Source: Nostoc sp. TCL240-02 | GTDB taxonomy: Bacteria > Cyanobacteriota > Cyanobacteriia > Cyanobacteriales > Nostocaceae | DNA: 64,000 bases | Direction of reading: 5' to 3' | NCBI RefSeq assembly: GCF_013343235.1 | Contig: NZ_CP040094.1 | Coordinates: 7,501-71,500, forward strand | Shown here: positions 23,584 to 45,452 of the stretch, one piece after another | How the letters are laid out: the number at the start of each line of letters is the position of its first letter | Position numbering within the stretch: position 1 is the first letter of the stretch | The notes under the pieces: generated by a model | The model's input: the letters and a program-made list of their open reading frames with translations, nothing else | The model's database searches: none | What the model was told of the DNA's origin: nothing | Made by a program: the position numbers and the translations under genes

Positions 23584-23704
23584 TATGCGCTCTAGATTTT
23601 GATGGTGGCGCTGCCATATTTTAGATATGGTAGCTTTTTGTGTCTATGCTGATGTTGAAGCCAGAGGTAGTATTAAGGGAAGAATGAATTAAGCTTTGCT
23701 CGTA

Positions 23705-25162
23705 ATGACTCTGGCTGAAACTCCAAACTACAAAAATTCTAGCAATCCTCTTCTCTCCCTCAACTACGAAAGCGCCTTAGAATCTCTAGGTGATGACTAC
23801 TATGATGAGGTGGCAGCAGCAGAATTTCCCCAACACCTCTTGCGTTGGCGTAACGATGCACTACTACCTCGTTTGGGTTTAGACCCTCAAGTAGTTAAAG
23901 ACGAAGATTTCATCACAGCTTTTGGCCAGTTTCAGGGGCGCAAACCCTTGTTAGCACTACGTTACCACGGCTATCAATTTGGTGAATATAACGGACAGTT
24001 GGGAGATGGTAGAGGCTTTCTCTACGGGCAAGTCCGCGCCATTGATGGCGAATTATACGATTTTGGAACTAAAGGCTCTGGAAGAACGCCCTACTCCCGT
24101 GGTGGCGATGGTATGCTCACGCTCAAAGGTGGGGTGCGGGAAGTTCTTGCTGCGGAAGCACTGCACCATCTAGGTGTACGTACCTCGCGCTGTCTGAGCA
24201 TGATTGAAACAGGTTTACCCCTCTGGCGGGGTGATGAACCTTCGCCTACCCGTTCATCTGTGATGATTAGAATGAGCAGTTCTCATATTCGGTTTGGCAC
24301 TTTTGAGCGACTGCACTATTTTCAGCGTCCAGATTTAACTAAGAAGTTGTTAGACCACGTAATTGAGCAGTATTATCGACACTTAAGTACTGAACAAGAT
24401 CAATATGTCTTGTTTTACGCCGAATTAGTTGAACGGGTTGCAAAACTAGTAGCGCAGTGGATGGCGGCTGGCTTTTGTCATGCAGTCCTGAATACTGACA
24501 ATATGTCGATTACTGGAGAGAGTTTTGACTATGGGCCTTACGCCTTTATTTCGACTTATAACCCATCCTTTATCGCTGCATATTTTGACTATTATGGACG
24601 CTACTGTTACGGTAATCAACCAAGTATTTGTCAACTGAATTTACAAATGCTCCAAGAACCTTTAAAGGCAATTATTGATAAAGGCGAAATGGAAGCTGCA
24701 TTAGAAAGGTTTGATGAATATTATCAAGCTGAATACAGTTCTTTGATGTTGAAAAAGTTAGGTTTTGTGGAGTTGCCACATCCACAAGCTACGGAACTGT
24801 TGAATCTCACGGTTGAATTCTTGAAAGATAGCCAAGTTGGTTATCACCAGTTTTTTTATGAGATGGCTCGGACTTTTTCATCAAAATGGCGAGATGAGCC
24901 AGGTTTTGTAATGAACAATTCAGATATTGTGCCAGTACCGGGTGCGTTGGGAATTTTTGATGATTGGTGCATACTATACCATAAAATCTTGAATGATTTT
25001 GATAGCGATCGCACCGATGTAATTGCCCAAACACTAGCTGTTCATAATCCGAAAACGACACTATTAAGACCTGTGATTGAGTCTACTTGGGAAGCAATTG
25101 CTCAAGAGGATAATTGGCAACCTTTTTATGAGTTAATCCAGGCGATTCAGTTTAGAAAATAG
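23705..25162 (+). CDS. selO: Protein adenylyltransferase SelO (YdiU/UPF0061)
   Basis: SelO is a pseudokinase-fold enzyme that transfers AMP from ATP to Ser/Thr/Tyr residues of proteins and is linked to redox homeostasis. Visible marks are [20 protein letters not shown] with [10 protein letters not shown] (nucleotide loop), [20 protein letters not shown], and the catalytic [20 protein letters not shown] (Asn and Asp for Mg2+). The protein has 485 residues, near the usual length, and lacks the C-terminal selenocysteine/cysteine tail of eukaryotic SelO. ATG 23705 is preferred to TTG 23696. Confidence 0.93.
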
Positions 25163-25567: not shown

Positions 25568-25724
25568 ATGAATCAGATATACATATCTTATGCATGGAAA
25601 GATAACAAGAGTGAATTAGGTAGTCAACGCGAAGAATTAGTAGATAAAATTTGCACTGCACTTGTTTCTGAACGTTACAACTTAATTCGCGATCGCAACT
25701 ATTTAACGCTAGGTATAGCGGTTA

Positions 25725-26192
25725 TCAGTCTTGTGAGGTACAGTAGCAGCAGTGAGTAAACCAACCCAGCAAATTCTCTATTGTCACTTCTGCGAATGCC
25801 GTATCTAATGCCTGGAGTAAATCAGGGTATGTCCTTGCACCGATGCGACGGAGAATGTTCTTAATCTTGGACCAACAATTCTCAATCGGTGAAAAATCGG
25901 GAGAATAGGGGGGGAGATAAATGAGATGAGCGCCAGCAGCGATGAGCAAAGCTTCAAGTTCATCACTTTTATGGATTGAGCAGTTATCCATGATCACCAC
26001 TGCACCAGGCCAAAGTTTGGGTACGAGCTTTTGGGCGATGAAGGCATCAAAAGTCAAAGCATCGATAGAACCTAAGCCACTCCATTGGGTGAGCAGTCCT
26101 TTCAAGCTAATTGCACCAATTACCGAGACATTTTTCCCTTTGCGGTTGGGCTTTTGAGCATAGCCTGAAGGCCAGGCAAGGCGCGGGCACAT
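25725..26192 (-). CDS. IS630-family transposase, C-terminal catalytic ORF (orfB)
   Basis: The 155-residue DDE part shows VVIMDNCSIHKSDELEA (second Asp) and HLIYLPPYSPDFSPIENCWSKIK (catalytic Glu). The link to orfA needs the -1 shift at A-AAA-AAG plus a second frame change near 26180-26200, where reading passes from FIRKCARALPG to GYAQKPNRKGKNV. The second break looks like a base loss, so the transposase may be defective, yet both copies share it. Confidence 0.85.
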   Translation of the reverse strand: MCPRLAWPSGYAQKPNRKGKNVSVIGAISLKGLLTQWSGLGSIDALTFDAFIAQKLVPKLWPGAVVIMDNCSIHKSDELEALLIAAGAHLIYLPPYSPDFSPIENCWSKIKNILRRIGARTYPDLLQALDTAFAEVTIENLLGWFTHCCYCTSQD

Positions 26193-26286
26193 TTGCGGAT
26201 GAAGGACAGATTAACTCCCGATTCATCTAAGAAAATCAGCTCTTCGACGGGTATCCCCCTCAAGAGTTTCCAGTACTCAAATCGGG

Positions 26287-26691
26287 CTAGTTGGACTTCA
26301 TCACTACCTTTTTTTGTGAGGTGGAGACTTTTTTTTTGAGGTTGAGGTGAAGTTTCCAGCGAACCATCCGATTCACCGTAGCTACCCCAATTAAGACCTC
26401 TGTTTTCTCGTAAAGTCGTTCCCGCAATTCGCTTAACGTCGCATCGGGCTGTGCTATGACGAGTTGGCGCAGGATTTCTAACTGTTCAGCATTCAACTTT
26501 GTTGCTGTCTGCTCAGTCCGCACCTTGGGGCCTATCATCCCCAATTCTCGATGGCGTTTGAGTAAATTTTGCACAAAACTTAAGGTGACACCAAAGTTTT
26601 TAGCCAGTTTTCGTTGGGAAATGTCACCGCAGGCATAAGCATCAACTATTTTTTGACGCAAGTCGAGAGAGTAGGCTTTCATCACCACCAA
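26287..26691 (-). CDS. IS630-family transposase, N-terminal ORF (orfA)
   Basis: The 134-residue product has helix-turn-helix DNA-binding domains (YSLDLRQKIVDAYACGDIS, QRKLAKNFGVTLSFVQNLLK) and a second winged part (ATLSELRERLYEKTEVLIGV). Near its 3' end the coding strand reads A-AAA-AAG, a canonical -1 slippery heptamer. A shift there enters a frame reading GSDEVQLARFEYWKLLRGIP and then LIFLDESGVNLSF, which holds the first catalytic Asp. Confidence 0.88.
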   Translation of the reverse strand: MVVMKAYSLDLRQKIVDAYACGDISQRKLAKNFGVTLSFVQNLLKRHRELGMIGPKVRTEQTATKLNAEQLEILRQLVIAQPDATLSELRERLYEKTEVLIGVATVNRMVRWKLHLNLKKKVSTSQKKVVMKSN

Positions 26692-28000
26692 TTATCAGTA
26701 GAATTGCTCTCTCCTACTGTACTGAAGTAGACTGATAACCGCTATAAGAGTATACACGACTTCATGCAGGAAATCGGGCGCGGAAACTATGTAATTGTCG
26801 TTGTCAGCGACAAATATTTGCGCTCGGAATACTGTATGTTTGAAGCTGTTGAAATCATGAAACGCAAGGATTATGAACAAAAAGTTTTTCCTGTGGTTTT
26901 ACAGGATGCTAATGTTTATACCAAAGAAGGTAAGAGCGAGTACATAAAATATTGGAAGCAACAGAAAGAAAAAATCAAAGAACTCATCGGTTCAGAACGA
27001 ACTTCTCATGAATATTCAGCAATGCATGATGTTGCTGATAAAATTATGGAAATTTCGCAAAAAATTGATGAATTCATGTTTTTCATCTCAGATAAATTAA
27101 GCATTGATCCATCTCATAACTTTAATGTATTTATTAATCAGCTTACTGACGCTATTAAAAATGATGCTGTTAAACTTAGAAGTAAAAAGAGCATTTTAGT
27201 TGCAGGTACAGGAAACTTTCATATTCCTAATGAAGTCAATTGGTGCGCTCAAAAGCTTGGGGCGAAAATAGCAGAATATAACTATAACCTGATTACTGGT
27301 GGATGGCAGGGAGTAGATTATGTTGTAGCTGATAAGTTTGCTGAAAAAATCACGCAACAAAATATCCGCCTAACCGATAAGTTAACTCACGTTGTTCCAC
27401 GAGAAAAACAACCTGTCTTTAAGGGTGGAAAAGTCGAATACACTGAGTCAGGTATTAATGAGTGGCTCGATTGTTTGCGACATTCAGATTTGGTGATTCT
27501 TGTGGGAGGCGTTGGCGGAACGTATGAAACTTATCTGTATGCTAAACAAGAAAAAATTCCGGTGATTCCTATTGTATGCACTAATGGAGATGCCAAAAAA
27601 GTGTTCGACGAAATGCTGGCAAATTGGGATAGTAAATTAATGGGAAATATCTCACCGGAAAAATTTAAGTCACTGAATCAATATATCAATGACCCTTCAA
27701 CAGCAGAAGATGTAGTCAATGATGTTATGGATATCGTTAACGAAATTATTTTTGCAAAAACCATGCTAAATACTCAGGATAAGCTCATCTAATTTGGTAT
27801 AAAGTTAACTTGAAAAATCAAAGAAGAGGGATATCTACTTTGATTATAAAAACTAAACAGTTTAGTTTGCTCCTGTGTATCACCTATGCTATATCTGCCC
27901 CGATTTGCTGGTTATAAGCTTTTTTAAAGGCTGCTATCCCTTCTTAGCAAGTTATGTCAAACCCGGCTTGCATCCCACTCATAACAAAACTTTTTGTCAA

Positions 28001-28639
28001 TTATGTTCCCGGACGAGAGCGAATATGATCGGGTATATGATGACGATCACCTAATATTTCTAACAAAGGGCCATTAACGTCAAATTTAACCATACTTACC
28101 GACGCGACCAAAATATTCACCCGATAGCGATAGCGTCCCAAATCAATTCCCAGTAAACTGCAAAGCATAATCCGAATCGTGGCTTTATGGGAAACTACTA
28201 AAACATTACCTTGGTGATGTTTTTCTTGAATTTCAGCAATTACAGGCATAGAACGGTTAGCAATATCTACCGCAGTTTCTCCACCTAGTGGTGCATTCCA
28301 AGCGGGTTCTGTCAACCATTTTACATAGTTTTCTGCGTAATTCTCTTGAGCAAACGATTTACTCTTCCTTTCCCATTCGCCGTAACTACCTTCTCTAAGT
28401 CCGTCACGCAACTGCATATCCATACCGATAGCATCACAAAATGGCTTGGCAGTTGCAATTGTGCGCTTCATCGGGCTAACATAAACCGCTTCCCACTTCA
28501 ATTTTTGATAAACATCGGCGAAACCGGATGCCATCTGCATCCCCTCTGTTGTCAACTCCGCATCAGTTTCACCGCAGAAATTACCACTTTGACTAAAAGT
28601 AGTCTCTCCATGTCGCAGTAAATATAAATTGAGTGTCAT
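28001..28639 (-). CDS. Histidine phosphatase (phosphoglycerate mutase-like)
   Basis: The 212-residue product starts with the catalytic RHG motif (LNLYLLRHGETTFSQSG), followed by ELTTEGMQMA, VYVSPMKRTIATAKPF (phosphate-binding Arg), LREGSYGEWE (catalytic Glu) and NVLVVSHKATIRIMLCSLL (second His). It is a 2-histidine phosphatase; whether it acts on phosphoglycerate, a sugar phosphate or another metabolite is unknown. Single gene, start ATG 28639. Confidence 0.9.
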   Translation of the reverse strand: MTLNLYLLRHGETTFSQSGNFCGETDAELTTEGMQMASGFADVYQKLKWEAVYVSPMKRTIATAKPFCDAIGMDMQLRDGLREGSYGEWERKSKSFAQENYAENYVKWLTEPAWNAPLGGETAVDIANRSMPVIAEIQEKHHQGNVLVVSHKATIRIMLCSLLGIDLGRYRYRVNILVASVSMVKFDVNGPLLEILGDRHHIPDHIRSRPGT

Positions 28640-28805: not shown

Positions 28806-30530
28806 CTAACTAAATTGCTGGGCATAAAACCGCGCGTAGCGATGCTCTAGGGCTAATAATTCTTCATGGGTTCCTGATTCGACAATTTGTCCCTGTTCGA
28901 GAACTAAAATACGATCGCACCGTCTCACGGTTGATAAACGGTGAGCAATAATAAATACTGTGCGTTTTTGCATCAGTCTTTCCAGCGCTTCCTGTACTAG
29001 TGCTTCTGATTCAGAGTCTAATGCTGATGTCGCCTCATCAAGAATCAAGATTTGGGGATTGAGGAGAACCGCACGAGCGATCGCAATTCTTTGTCTTTGT
29101 CCTCCTGATAAGTTTACCCCACGTTCACCCACCCAAGTCTGATAAACCTCTGGCAGTTGGCTAATAAATTCATGGGCATTAGCAATTTTCGCCGCCTCTT
29201 TCACTGCTTTTATATCAAAAACATCTTGTCCAAAAGCGATATTTTGAGCAATCGTCCCCGAAAACATGATGGTTTCTTGAGGAACAATCCCAATTTGTCG
29301 CCGCAGACTATGCAGCTTCACATCCCGAATATCAACATCGTCAATGAAGATTTGCCCCACTTCAGGGTCATAAAAACGGGGGAGGAGATTCACAAATGTG
29401 GTTTTACCTGCACCAGAAGCACCCACAAGAGCGATCGCTTCACCTGGCGATACCAATAAACTGATATCTTTTAATACGGGTTCACCAGGCTTATAGGCAA
29501 AGGAAATATGACGATATTCTATTTTGCCCTTAACTGGGGGGAGAGCGATCGCATTGAACTTTTCAATCACCGTTGGCTGAATTGCCATCAATTCAAAAAC
29601 GCGGTCAACGGATGCCTCACCCTGCTTAAATTCGTTGTAGTTGTTAGTAGTGTGACCAATGGGATCAATTAACAGCGCCGCCGCCGCCAGATAGCTGAAA
29701 AAATTCGCCACTGTCAAGTTATTTTGGGAAATTTGCCACGCTCCCACAATTAGTAACGATAACGCACTTAAAGCTTCCAGAAATCCCACTATGGGAATCT
29801 GAATCGCTTTGAGGCGTTCGGCTGAGTATTTGGCTTTGAGACTGCGTTCTGCTTCATGACCAAAGCGGGCAATTTCGTAATTTTCAGCAGCAAAAGCCTG
29901 TACCAAACGAATACCGTTGAAAACTTCCGCGAGAATGGCTGATAAACCCGACACGCGATTTTGACTTTTTAAGGAATACTTGCGTAAACGTTCACCAAAC
30001 CAGCCGACTAAAATACCCATCAGTGGTGCAACTATGACTGTTGCTAATGTCAGTTGCCAATTCAGGTAAATCATGTAAATCGGAATTGCCACCAACTGCA
30101 AAATACAGGGGATAAAGTCGTGAAATCCTTTATTTACCACTTCGCCAACCCGGTCAACATCTTCTGTGAGGCGGTAAGATAAGTCACCTGCTTTTGCGGT
30201 TTCAAAATAGCTGAGATTTAGCTTTTGCAGATGGGCGTAGACTTGCTGGCGGAGATGAAAAGCAACTCTTAAAGAAGCTTTCGCCATGTACATATCTTGT
30301 ATAGACTGAAACAAGCCTCTGACAAGAAAGACTAAAGCACAGCTGCCAGTTATTTGAGCGATCGCTACTACATTACCCTGTGCAAAGGGAATTGCCAATT
30401 TACCGGCAAGATTTATCAACAATAATGTCGCCAGCACGTATCCCAAGATCCCAATAAGTCCCTTGGTGATGGTTTTCCACTGGAGTCGGATATAAGGCAG
30501 CAGTTGCCAGTAATTAGAACGGGTTTTCAA
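28806..30530 (-). CDS. Type I ABC exporter (membrane domain fused to ATPase)
   Basis: The 574-residue half-transporter has a six-helix membrane domain (about residues 20-310) and a nucleotide-binding domain (335-574). Motifs are Walker A GASGAGKTT, Q-loop IGIVPQETIMFSGTI, signature LSGGQRQRIAIARA, Walker B ILILDEATSALD and the switch His in IIAHRLSTV. It belongs to the MsbA/HepA-like group, which exports lipids, glycolipids, polysaccharide precursors or drugs as a homodimer. HepA-like transporters build heterocyst envelopes, but the context here gives no sign of that role. Confidence 0.92.
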   Translation of the reverse strand: MKTRSNYWQLLPYIRLQWKTITKGLIGILGYVLATLLLINLAGKLAIPFAQGNVVAIAQITGSCALVFLVRGLFQSIQDMYMAKASLRVAFHLRQQVYAHLQKLNLSYFETAKAGDLSYRLTEDVDRVGEVVNKGFHDFIPCILQLVAIPIYMIYLNWQLTLATVIVAPLMGILVGWFGERLRKYSLKSQNRVSGLSAILAEVFNGIRLVQAFAAENYEIARFGHEAERSLKAKYSAERLKAIQIPIVGFLEALSALSLLIVGAWQISQNNLTVANFFSYLAAAALLIDPIGHTTNNYNEFKQGEASVDRVFELMAIQPTVIEKFNAIALPPVKGKIEYRHISFAYKPGEPVLKDISLLVSPGEAIALVGASGAGKTTFVNLLPRFYDPEVGQIFIDDVDIRDVKLHSLRRQIGIVPQETIMFSGTIAQNIAFGQDVFDIKAVKEAAKIANAHEFISQLPEVYQTWVGERGVNLSGGQRQRIAIARAVLLNPQILILDEATSALDSESEALVQEALERLMQKRTVFIIAHRLSTVRRCDRILVLEQGQIVESGTHEELLALEHRYARFYAQQFS

Positions 30531-44239: not shown

Positions 44240-44423
44240 ATGTCTACCATTGTATCCCGCCTCGATATTACGCAAATTTTCTGTGACATAGATGATTTCT
44301 GCAATCACTGGGAAAGCTTGTGGCAGCAAGTACCACAGCTACCATCAACAACAGGAGAACGGTGTAGTAAATCAAGGATGCATTTATCAGAGGTGATGAC
44401 AATAGCCATTGCATTTCATGGTA
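44240..44423 (+). pseudogene. IS982-family transposase remnant (N-terminal 61 codons)
   Basis: MSTIVSRLDITQIFCDIDDF and SKSRMHLSEVMTIAIAFHG match the start of IS982-type transposases (I-F-C-x-I-D-D-F ... L-S-E-V-M-T-I). A GCCGAGAC/GTCTCGGC hairpin lies just upstream at about 44194-44238. The frame is cut at the IS630 insertion and nothing of the catalytic region is found beyond it. Confidence 0.75.
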
Positions 44424-44432
44424 TAGCGGTTA

Positions 44433-44900
44433 TCAGTCTTGTGAGGTACAGTAGCAGCAGTGAGTAAACCAACCCAGCAAATTCTCTATTGTCACTTCTG
44501 CGAATGCCGTATCTAATGCCTGGAGTAAATCAGGGTATGTCCTTGCACCGATGCGACGGAGAATGTTCTTAATCTTGGACCAACAATTCTCAATCGGTGA
44601 AAAATCGGGAGAATAGGGGGGGAGATAAATGAGATGAGCGCCAGCAGCGATGAGCAAAGCTTCAAGTTCATCACTTTTATGGATTGAGCAGTTATCCATG
44701 ATCACCACTGCACCAGGCCAAAGTTTGGGTACGAGCTTTTGGGCGATGAAGGCATCAAAAGTCAAAGCATCGATAGAACCTAAGCCACTCCATTGGGTGA
44801 GCAGTCCTTTCAAGCTAATTGCACCAATTACCGAGACATTTTTCCCTTTGCGGTTGGGCTTTTGAGCATAGCCTGAAGGCCAGGCAAGGCGCGGGCACAT
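44433..44900 (-). CDS. IS630-family transposase orfB, copy 2
   Basis: Identical 155-residue catalytic part to that at 25725-26192, including the same second frame break just upstream. Confidence 0.85.
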   Translation of the reverse strand: MCPRLAWPSGYAQKPNRKGKNVSVIGAISLKGLLTQWSGLGSIDALTFDAFIAQKLVPKLWPGAVVIMDNCSIHKSDELEALLIAAGAHLIYLPPYSPDFSPIENCWSKIKNILRRIGARTYPDLLQALDTAFAEVTIENLLGWFTHCCYCTSQD

Positions 44901-44994
44901 TTGCGGATGAAGGACAGATTAACTCCCGATTCATCTAAGAAAATCAGCTCTTCGACGGGTATCCCCCTCAAGAGTTTCCAGTACTCAAATCGGG

Positions 44995-45399
44995 CTAGTT
45001 GGACTTCATCACTACCTTTTTTTGTGAGGTGGAGACTTTTTTTTTGAGGTTGAGGTGAAGTTTCCAGCGAACCATCCGATTCACCGTAGCTACCCCAATT
45101 AAGACCTCTGTTTTCTCGTAAAGTCGTTCCCGCAATTCGCTTAACGTCGCATCGGGCTGTGCTATGACGAGTTGGCGCAGGATTTCTAACTGTTCAGCAT
45201 TCAACTTTGTTGCTGTCTGCTCAGTCCGCACCTTGGGGCCTATCATCCCCAATTCTCGATGGCGTTTGAGTAAATTTTGCACAAAACTTAAGGTGACACC
45301 AAAGTTTTTAGCCAGTTTTCGTTGGGAAATGTCACCGCAGGCATAAGCATCAACTATTTTTTGACGCAAGTCGAGAGAGTAGGCTTTCATCACCACCAA
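44995..45399 (-). CDS. IS630-family transposase orfA, copy 2
   Basis: Identical 134-residue product to that at 26287-26691, with the A-AAA-AAG slippery site near its 3' end. Confidence 0.88.
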   Translation of the reverse strand: MVVMKAYSLDLRQKIVDAYACGDISQRKLAKNFGVTLSFVQNLLKRHRELGMIGPKVRTEQTATKLNAEQLEILRQLVIAQPDATLSELRERLYEKTEVLIGVATVNRMVRWKLHLNLKKKVSTSQKKVVMKSN

Positions 45400-45452
45400 T
45401 TATCAGTAGAATTGCTCTCTCCTACTGTACTGAAGTAGACTGATAACCGCTA

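Follow-up and report, generated by a model that had tools for sequence, protein, structure and literature searches.

A TIR–SLOG fusion gene cut by an IS630-family element in Nostoc, with a candidate role as a lone ThsA-like NADase

The window analysed here is the whole stretch of 64,000 nucleotides from Nostoc sp. TCL240-02 (contig NZ_CP040094.1, positions 7,501 to 71,500), a genome held in a single 7.89-Mb contig and having Nostoc as its close relatives. At 25568-27792 of the window lies a gene of 397 codons in which an N-terminal TIR domain and a C-terminal SLOG domain are joined, and within the TIR part it is interrupted by a 1029-bp insertion sequence (IS) of the IS630 family. The features of the gene and the element are these:

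25568..25715, plus strand: N-terminal piece of the interrupted gene, coding for residues 1-49 plus one base of codon 50 and opening the TIR domain; in an ungapped alignment it is 83-97% identical in DNA to intact relatives, and its start Met is that of the relative P0002
25714..25715, no strand: left copy of the TA target duplication; TA flanks 30 of 30 IS copies inspected, and the flanks overlap by 2 bp in 9 of 9 relatives, two of them by extrapolation
25716..26744, minus strand: IS630-family insertion sequence, 1029 bp, one of at least 40 nearly identical genomic copies
25725..26192, minus strand: C-terminal open reading frame (ORF) of the transposase (DDE_3); Pfam DDE_3 1.8e-25, NCBIfam IS630 9.6e-26
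26287..26691, minus strand: N-terminal ORF of the transposase (helix-turn-helix); Pfam HTH_Tnp_IS630 7e-7, NCBIfam IS630 1e-11
26745..26746, no strand: right copy of the TA target duplication, from the TA flanks of the IS copies and the flank overlap in relatives
26747..27792, plus strand: C-terminal piece of the interrupted gene, coding for residues 50-397 and ending with the stop codon; it holds a 342-residue ORF from the ATG at 26764
26747..26988, plus strand: rest of the TIR domain, ending near residue 130; Pfam TIR_2 gives 30.2 bits on the piece and covers 4-130 in the intact P0002
26842..26844, plus strand: Glu at the catalytic position (E82, P0002 numbering), invariant in 37 of 37 relatives and aligned to the Glu of the RUN1, RPV1 and Roq1 TIRs
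27184..27753, plus strand: SLOG domain (about residues 196-385)
27505..27531, plus strand: GGVGGTYET loop; all 37 relatives compared keep its last Thr (T311), which occupies the place of an apparent Glu in LOG enzymes and ThsA (weak alignments)

Counted with the two pieces kept apart, 148 bases on the left and 1046 on the right give 1194, or 398 codons including the stop, and neither piece contains an internal stop. The coordinates, frame and motifs given in a preliminary description of this locus are as described there. That description had a TIR and a SLOG domain in one protein, and this holds since both families are above Pfam cut-offs on the C-terminal piece, which alone clears those for TIR_2, LDcluster4 and STALD (PF18185, 28.9 bits against a cut-off of 24). 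The Glu of the SEYCMFEA motif lines up with a Glu in RUN1, RPV1 and other plant TIRs, where it is the catalytic residue.

The element carries the TA target duplication, the terminal inverted repeats (arms at 25714-25749 and 26711-26746) and the DDE_3 transposase of an IS630 member. Its empty site, which had been proposed as something to look for in related strains, is present: when the flanks are searched separately, their ends share exactly 2 bp at all 11 loci tested, which represent 9 of 9 genomes (L010 and L152 are the same, as are L013 and L153), with the overlap extrapolated in L016 and L154, where the alignments end before the flank ends. The right piece shows a ratio of nonsynonymous to synonymous change (dN/dS) of 0.12-0.18 against ten relatives, four near relatives giving 0.08-0.19 among themselves. 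Because there are no other stops, the right piece is under normal constraint and the IS copies are near-identical, the break looks recent, and the claim of a clean and recent insertion stands; none of the relatives examined was a sister strain near enough for dating the event. The gene had also been called silenced, which is so for the full protein, but the 342-residue ORF from the ATG at 26764 remains and may still be expressed.

Relatives of the protein are well represented in the databases, where 41 of 77 matches (P0001-P0041, 42-93% identity) are TIR–SLOG proteins, 39 of these with both domains listed, one a partial record and one a deleted form, and so the architecture is not a chance match. 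Cyanobacteria and a few Bacteroidota have intact homologues, and all 37 relatives compared keep the Glu at the catalytic position. For one intact relative AlphaFold predicts a TIR fold and a SLOG fold, and the modelled SLOG matches Thoeris ThsA, the comparison originally suggested, and molybdenum cofactor (MoCo) carrier proteins equally, with tied Z scores; families missing from this structural comparison are not treated as excluded.

Phosphoribohydrolases of the LOG type carry the motif PGGxGTxxE, ending in a Glu. In the register of a weak alignment to 1rcu, T311 takes the place of that Glu and the family instead has GGxGGTYxT, with Thr in 37 of 37, a difference from the LOG, MoCo-carrier and TM1055 SLOG proteins to which the fusion to TIR is to be added. 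A SLOG domain acting as a LOG-like N-glycosidase, which would cleave or process the TIR product and so switch the response off, is very improbable given the invariant Thr at the GTxxE Glu place. The ligand-binding residues of ThsA also seem to be replaced. According to PMC10022894, R371, K388 and E403 (BcThsA numbering) coordinate 3' cyclic ADP-ribose (3'cADPR), and PMC7272460 lists Ser288, Phe357, Arg371 and Glu403 as conserved across STALD. A profile alignment to SeThsA, itself weak (E 0.059), was mapped by spacing: T311 falls on the E403 position, R371 has no Arg counterpart and K388 meets a gap, the Lys lying in a loop missing from the TIR–SLOG family. Sensing of cyclic ADP-ribose by the SLOG domain, as first proposed, is weakened accordingly on that weak alignment. 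Since both the ThsA ligand residues and the LOG Glu appear replaced, the domain looks like a non-catalytic binder with a conserved pocket of its own. A search for cyanobacterial ThsA homologues on which to align the pocket detected STALD in five genomes out of 386, and three of the five carry TIR–SLOG.

What else SLOG domains of this kind are joined to was surveyed by a Pfam scan of 13 of the 77 database matches. One relative is fused with EAD11 (P0044), SLOG precedes a C-terminal TIR in four (P0046, P0047, P0049 and P0059) and follows a TIR/SEFIR domain in P0058, and P0060 has SIR2_2, its SLOG half resting solely on the original database match. At two Bacteroidales loci SLOG is preceded by a short N-terminal stretch of the GNENIVIQDV type, with no effector seen. 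The pairing of SLOG with NADases and conflict adaptors among these relatives supports a sensor role. Across the phylum a search for SLOG partners at E <= 1e-12 matched 5 of 386 genomes, this one included, all of them TIR–SLOG carriers. Two side observations belong here. The Bacteroidales proteins (L027:3724-4533 and L028:9866-10648) are 260-269 residues long and start with a GNENIVIQDVxNSTITIN-like stretch, also found in P0042, which is possibly an oligomerising or adaptor motif. On a Rhizobium phaseoli plasmid (NZ_CP013578.1:28360-28779) a protein annotated as 'SAV_2336 N-terminal domain-related' holds a SLOG relative at 35% identity, a further architecture.

The reading that we favour, on balance and with some reserve, is that the TIR–SLOG protein is a ThsA-like, ligand-gated NADase in which TIR replaces SIR2, serving as a lone-gene suicide defence. 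The C-terminal SLOG would be a non-catalytic pocket for a nucleotide-derived ligand, probably a nicotinamide adenine dinucleotide (NAD) or ADP-ribose derivative appearing on infection; its binding would cause the N-terminal TIR domains to assemble and hydrolyse NAD+, and loss of NAD+ would stop the cell before phage release, as in abortive infection. The gene would act alone, with a ligand made by another TIR, by another enzyme of the cell or by its own TIR, and in this strain the IS630 copy would have broken it, apparently recently, within a genome-wide burst. The passage from ligand to TIR assembly to NAD+ loss is suggested because TIR–STING and TIR–SAVED oligomerise only on recognising nucleotide signals, according to PMC11204291. 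The same source supplies the likeness to these effectors of the cyclic-oligonucleotide-based anti-phage signalling system (CBASS), a ligand-binding domain fused to a TIR NADase, whereas here the sensor is SLOG and no cyclase model is among the PADLOC defence models matched by 42 neighbouring genes. In layout the protein resembles ThsA of Thoeris, NADase first and SLOG (STALD) last; in contrast ThsA has SIR2 as its NADase where TIR–SLOG has an N-terminal TIR_2 (P0002), no ThsB was found beside it, its ligand residues are apparently other on the weak alignment, and its SLOG also matches LDcluster4. Plant TIR NADases (RPV1, RUN1, RPP1 and Roq1) differ in that TIR–SLOG is without the nucleotide-binding leucine-rich-repeat part and has SLOG instead.

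How the gene is distributed bears on whether a defence role fits. Within the genus 12 of 53 genomes carry it, ten intact, the present one cut by the IS and one truncated (G039); in the order sample a match at E <= 1e-60 was obtained for 8 of 388 genomes, the present one included; and 16 of 33 loci on GTDB contigs are full length, 13 cyanobacterial and three from Bacteroidota, several of these loci being the same genomes as in the genus set. A premature stop considered in one relative (G016, L081) was rejected, the TAG being a read-through past the normal stop with the frame open, and that copy is counted as intact. Among the non-carriers 38 of 41 regions were covered and held no relic of the gene (best chance match E 0.24), with both anchor genes of the locus found in 30 of the 38, 58-1650 bp apart. 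The ten intact genus copies have a dN/dS of 0.142 (45 pairs, Nei-Gojobori; 0.135 for TIR and 0.111 for SLOG), the neighbouring ABC transporter gene has 0.119 (36 pairs from 9 genomes), and the distances of the two genes correlate at 0.89. On the ABC tree, made from 40 of 50 rows (ten without a full-length ABC gene in the stretch were dropped, two carriers among them), presence of the gene needs six changes, at least four of them forced by well-supported branches; the shuffled mean is 9.0 changes, and for carriers 8 of 500 shuffles were as low. Because the distances correlate and the tree demands several changes of presence, the gene is inherited in place with its neighbours yet lost or regained by region exchange several times.

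Constraint so close to that of the ABC gene, together with fixed positions among housekeeping genes kept within a lineage and no phage, viral-contig or full plasmid copy, would suit a housekeeping or stress sensor, in which SLOG would detect a nucleotide metabolite while TIR adjusted the NAD level or the differentiation of multicellular cyanobacteria. Patchy presence in the genus, the forced changes on the locus tree and three natural disruptions speak against such a sensor, which we hold to be decidedly unlikely; because of the patchiness and the disruptions a dispensable defence gene fits better than a core regulator. The two disruptions besides the IS630 insertion both take SLOG. In Nostoc sp. 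NMS2 (L026/L082) a 3' deletion removes SLOG and leaves TIR residues 4-143 with an altered start, and Nostoc sp. LEGE 12447 (P0040) has an in-frame loss of about 120 SLOG residues, its TIR_2 scoring 51.6 bits. TIR without SLOG is apparently tolerated in both, and because these alleles keep the TIR part they fit SLOG as an activator.

The two conserved anchors of the locus, with a further gene between them in this genome, are:

23696..25162, plus strand: SelO, upstream neighbour and conserved anchor; Pfam SelO 5e-227
28001..28639, minus strand: downstream neighbour of the histidine phosphatase family (phosphoglycerate-mutase-like), beside the TIR–SLOG gene in part of the genus; Pfam His_Phos_1
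28806..30530, minus strand: ABC transporter, downstream neighbour and conserved anchor, used for the locus tree; Pfam ABC_membrane and ABC_tran

In genus carriers the TIR–SLOG gene follows SelO in 11 of 12 (the exception is G001) and precedes the ABC gene in 12 of 12, with or without the histidine-phosphatase gene between; outside the genus the neighbours differ and are mostly housekeeping. The neighbour set comprised 42 proteins, 38 from 10 loci (at most two per side, from a mechanical ORF list) and four from the window, and no ThsA or ThsB model of PADLOC matched among them at E <= 0.001. At E <= 1e-10 there were five matches to four models: two neighbours matched mad3, one matched subtilase, and each of two Csa3 models had a single match. 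With the threshold relaxed to E <= 0.001, twenty models had one or two members each, not traced to single neighbours, among them SduA (2, best 3.4e-10), mad8 (2) and, with 1 each, PD-T4-6, PsyrT, AriA and several CARF and CasR models including CARF3, so that an isolated defence gene beside some homologue is possible. Pfam assigned the neighbours mostly to metabolic, transport or two-component families, among the 25 of 91 families listed. A defence island around the homologues was considered and rejected, there being no clustering with known defence genes or mobile elements. The expectation that homologues would lie near defence genes was not borne out, and of the two findings that together were to count against the idea, loss of the Glu and a solely housekeeping context, the context was found and the loss was not. 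For origin, no phage matched the gene, none of 11 viral-contig candidates held it, and three plasmid records matched the SLOG half only, with no full copy.

The idea that one protein is a self-contained sensor takes its strong form as a loop, in which TIR responds to infection, or is leaky, and yields a product of the cyclic ADP-ribose type; the SLOG of the same protein would bind that product and lock TIR into a faster NADase, a positive feedback. The absence of a ThsA or ThsB match in the neighbour set, the conserved catalytic Glu, a genome in which the single STALD match is the TIR–SLOG gene and a next TIR_2 match more than 440 kb away are in line with it. Self-containment thus stands as far as no partner gene lies beside TIR–SLOG, but the 21 TIR_2 matches of the genome are TIR–SLOG and 20 others, two with an internal stop, and these 20 could signal in trans; moreover a cyclic product from this TIR is an assumption and the ThsA pocket residues appear not conserved on the weak alignment. 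The loop is rather unlikely in our estimate. Distinctly unlikely too is a one-gene Thoeris, whose single polypeptide would produce an ADP-ribose-type messenger with TIR and detect it with SLOG, the messenger being one that ThsA does not use. NAD+ would then be depleted in a switch-like manner with no need of a partner gene, and filamentous cyanobacteria would carry the gene at a fixed place in the chromosome and lose it repeatedly by breakage. As to the TIR repertoire of the genome, which is rich, two of its TIR_2 matches lie about 800 bp apart at 2223124 and 2223903. Of separate interest are Leptolyngbya PCC 7375 (L018:8520-9874) and Adonisia (L019:8520-9874), which have a 90-residue protein, without a Pfam match in L018, and a gene of the phosphoribosyl pyrophosphate (PRPP) synthetase family directly upstream of the TIR–SLOG gene on the same strand, for which a link to NAD or PRPP is conceivable.

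Several points weigh against the ligand-gated ThsA-like NADase that we prefer. There is no clear defence-gene neighbourhood, and fixed chromosomal positions within lineages are unusual for a mobile defence gene; R371, K388 and E403 of ThsA appear not to be kept and the ligand may differ; and the modelled SLOG fits MoCo-carrier proteins as well as it fits ThsA. Nor is SLOG as an activator a safe conclusion, since mutations in the ThsA pocket can also activate, auto-active mutants being described in PMC10022894, and of the two SLOG-less alleles that of NMS2 comes from a metagenome assembly and that of LEGE 12447 is known solely as a database protein.

The name of the Pfam family STALD, 'Sir2- and TIR-associating SLOG family', already records the association with TIR, and reportedly the family has its source in work of Burroughs in 2015. 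PMC7272460, among other sources, uses STALD for ThsA, and PMC9503650 and PMC7824862 use 'TIR-SLOG' and 'SLOG-TIR' for immune systems in general. No description of a single-gene TIR–SLOG protein was found in the portions of the open-access literature searched, a scope outside which most subscription papers fall. The TIR–SLOG link was anticipated by the Pfam name, and the intact copies in relatives suggest that the single-gene form is a variant of the antiviral effector of Thoeris that carries another killing domain. If true, ThsA-type sensing would be modular, the same kind of SLOG being wired to SIR2, to TIR in either order or to an EAD adaptor, and a one-gene form would exist. Intact homologues in named Nostoc strains, such as ATCC 53789 and DedVER02, make testable both the ligand of a non-ThsA SLOG and the question of making and sensing in one protein, and the two alleles that lack SLOG in nature offer existing deletions from which to learn if SLOG is an activator of TIR or a restraint on it.

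The interrupting element itself is abundant. At least 40 copies at 99-100% identity are present in the genome, from 40 of 62 candidates scored; of the 30 laid out as loci, the one in the TIR–SLOG gene included, all have TA on both sides, and 29 of the 30 measure 1027-1031 bp. The break in the TIR–SLOG gene would then be one hit of a genome-wide IS burst rather than a selected silencing. The transposase open stretches of the 25716-26744 copy are in different frames, near runs of A9 and A7, and slippage or decay is possible in that copy. A second copy in the window, at 44424-45452, is 100% identical to it with TA on both sides, and breaks an ORF that starts at 44240 and is without a Pfam match as far as it was read.
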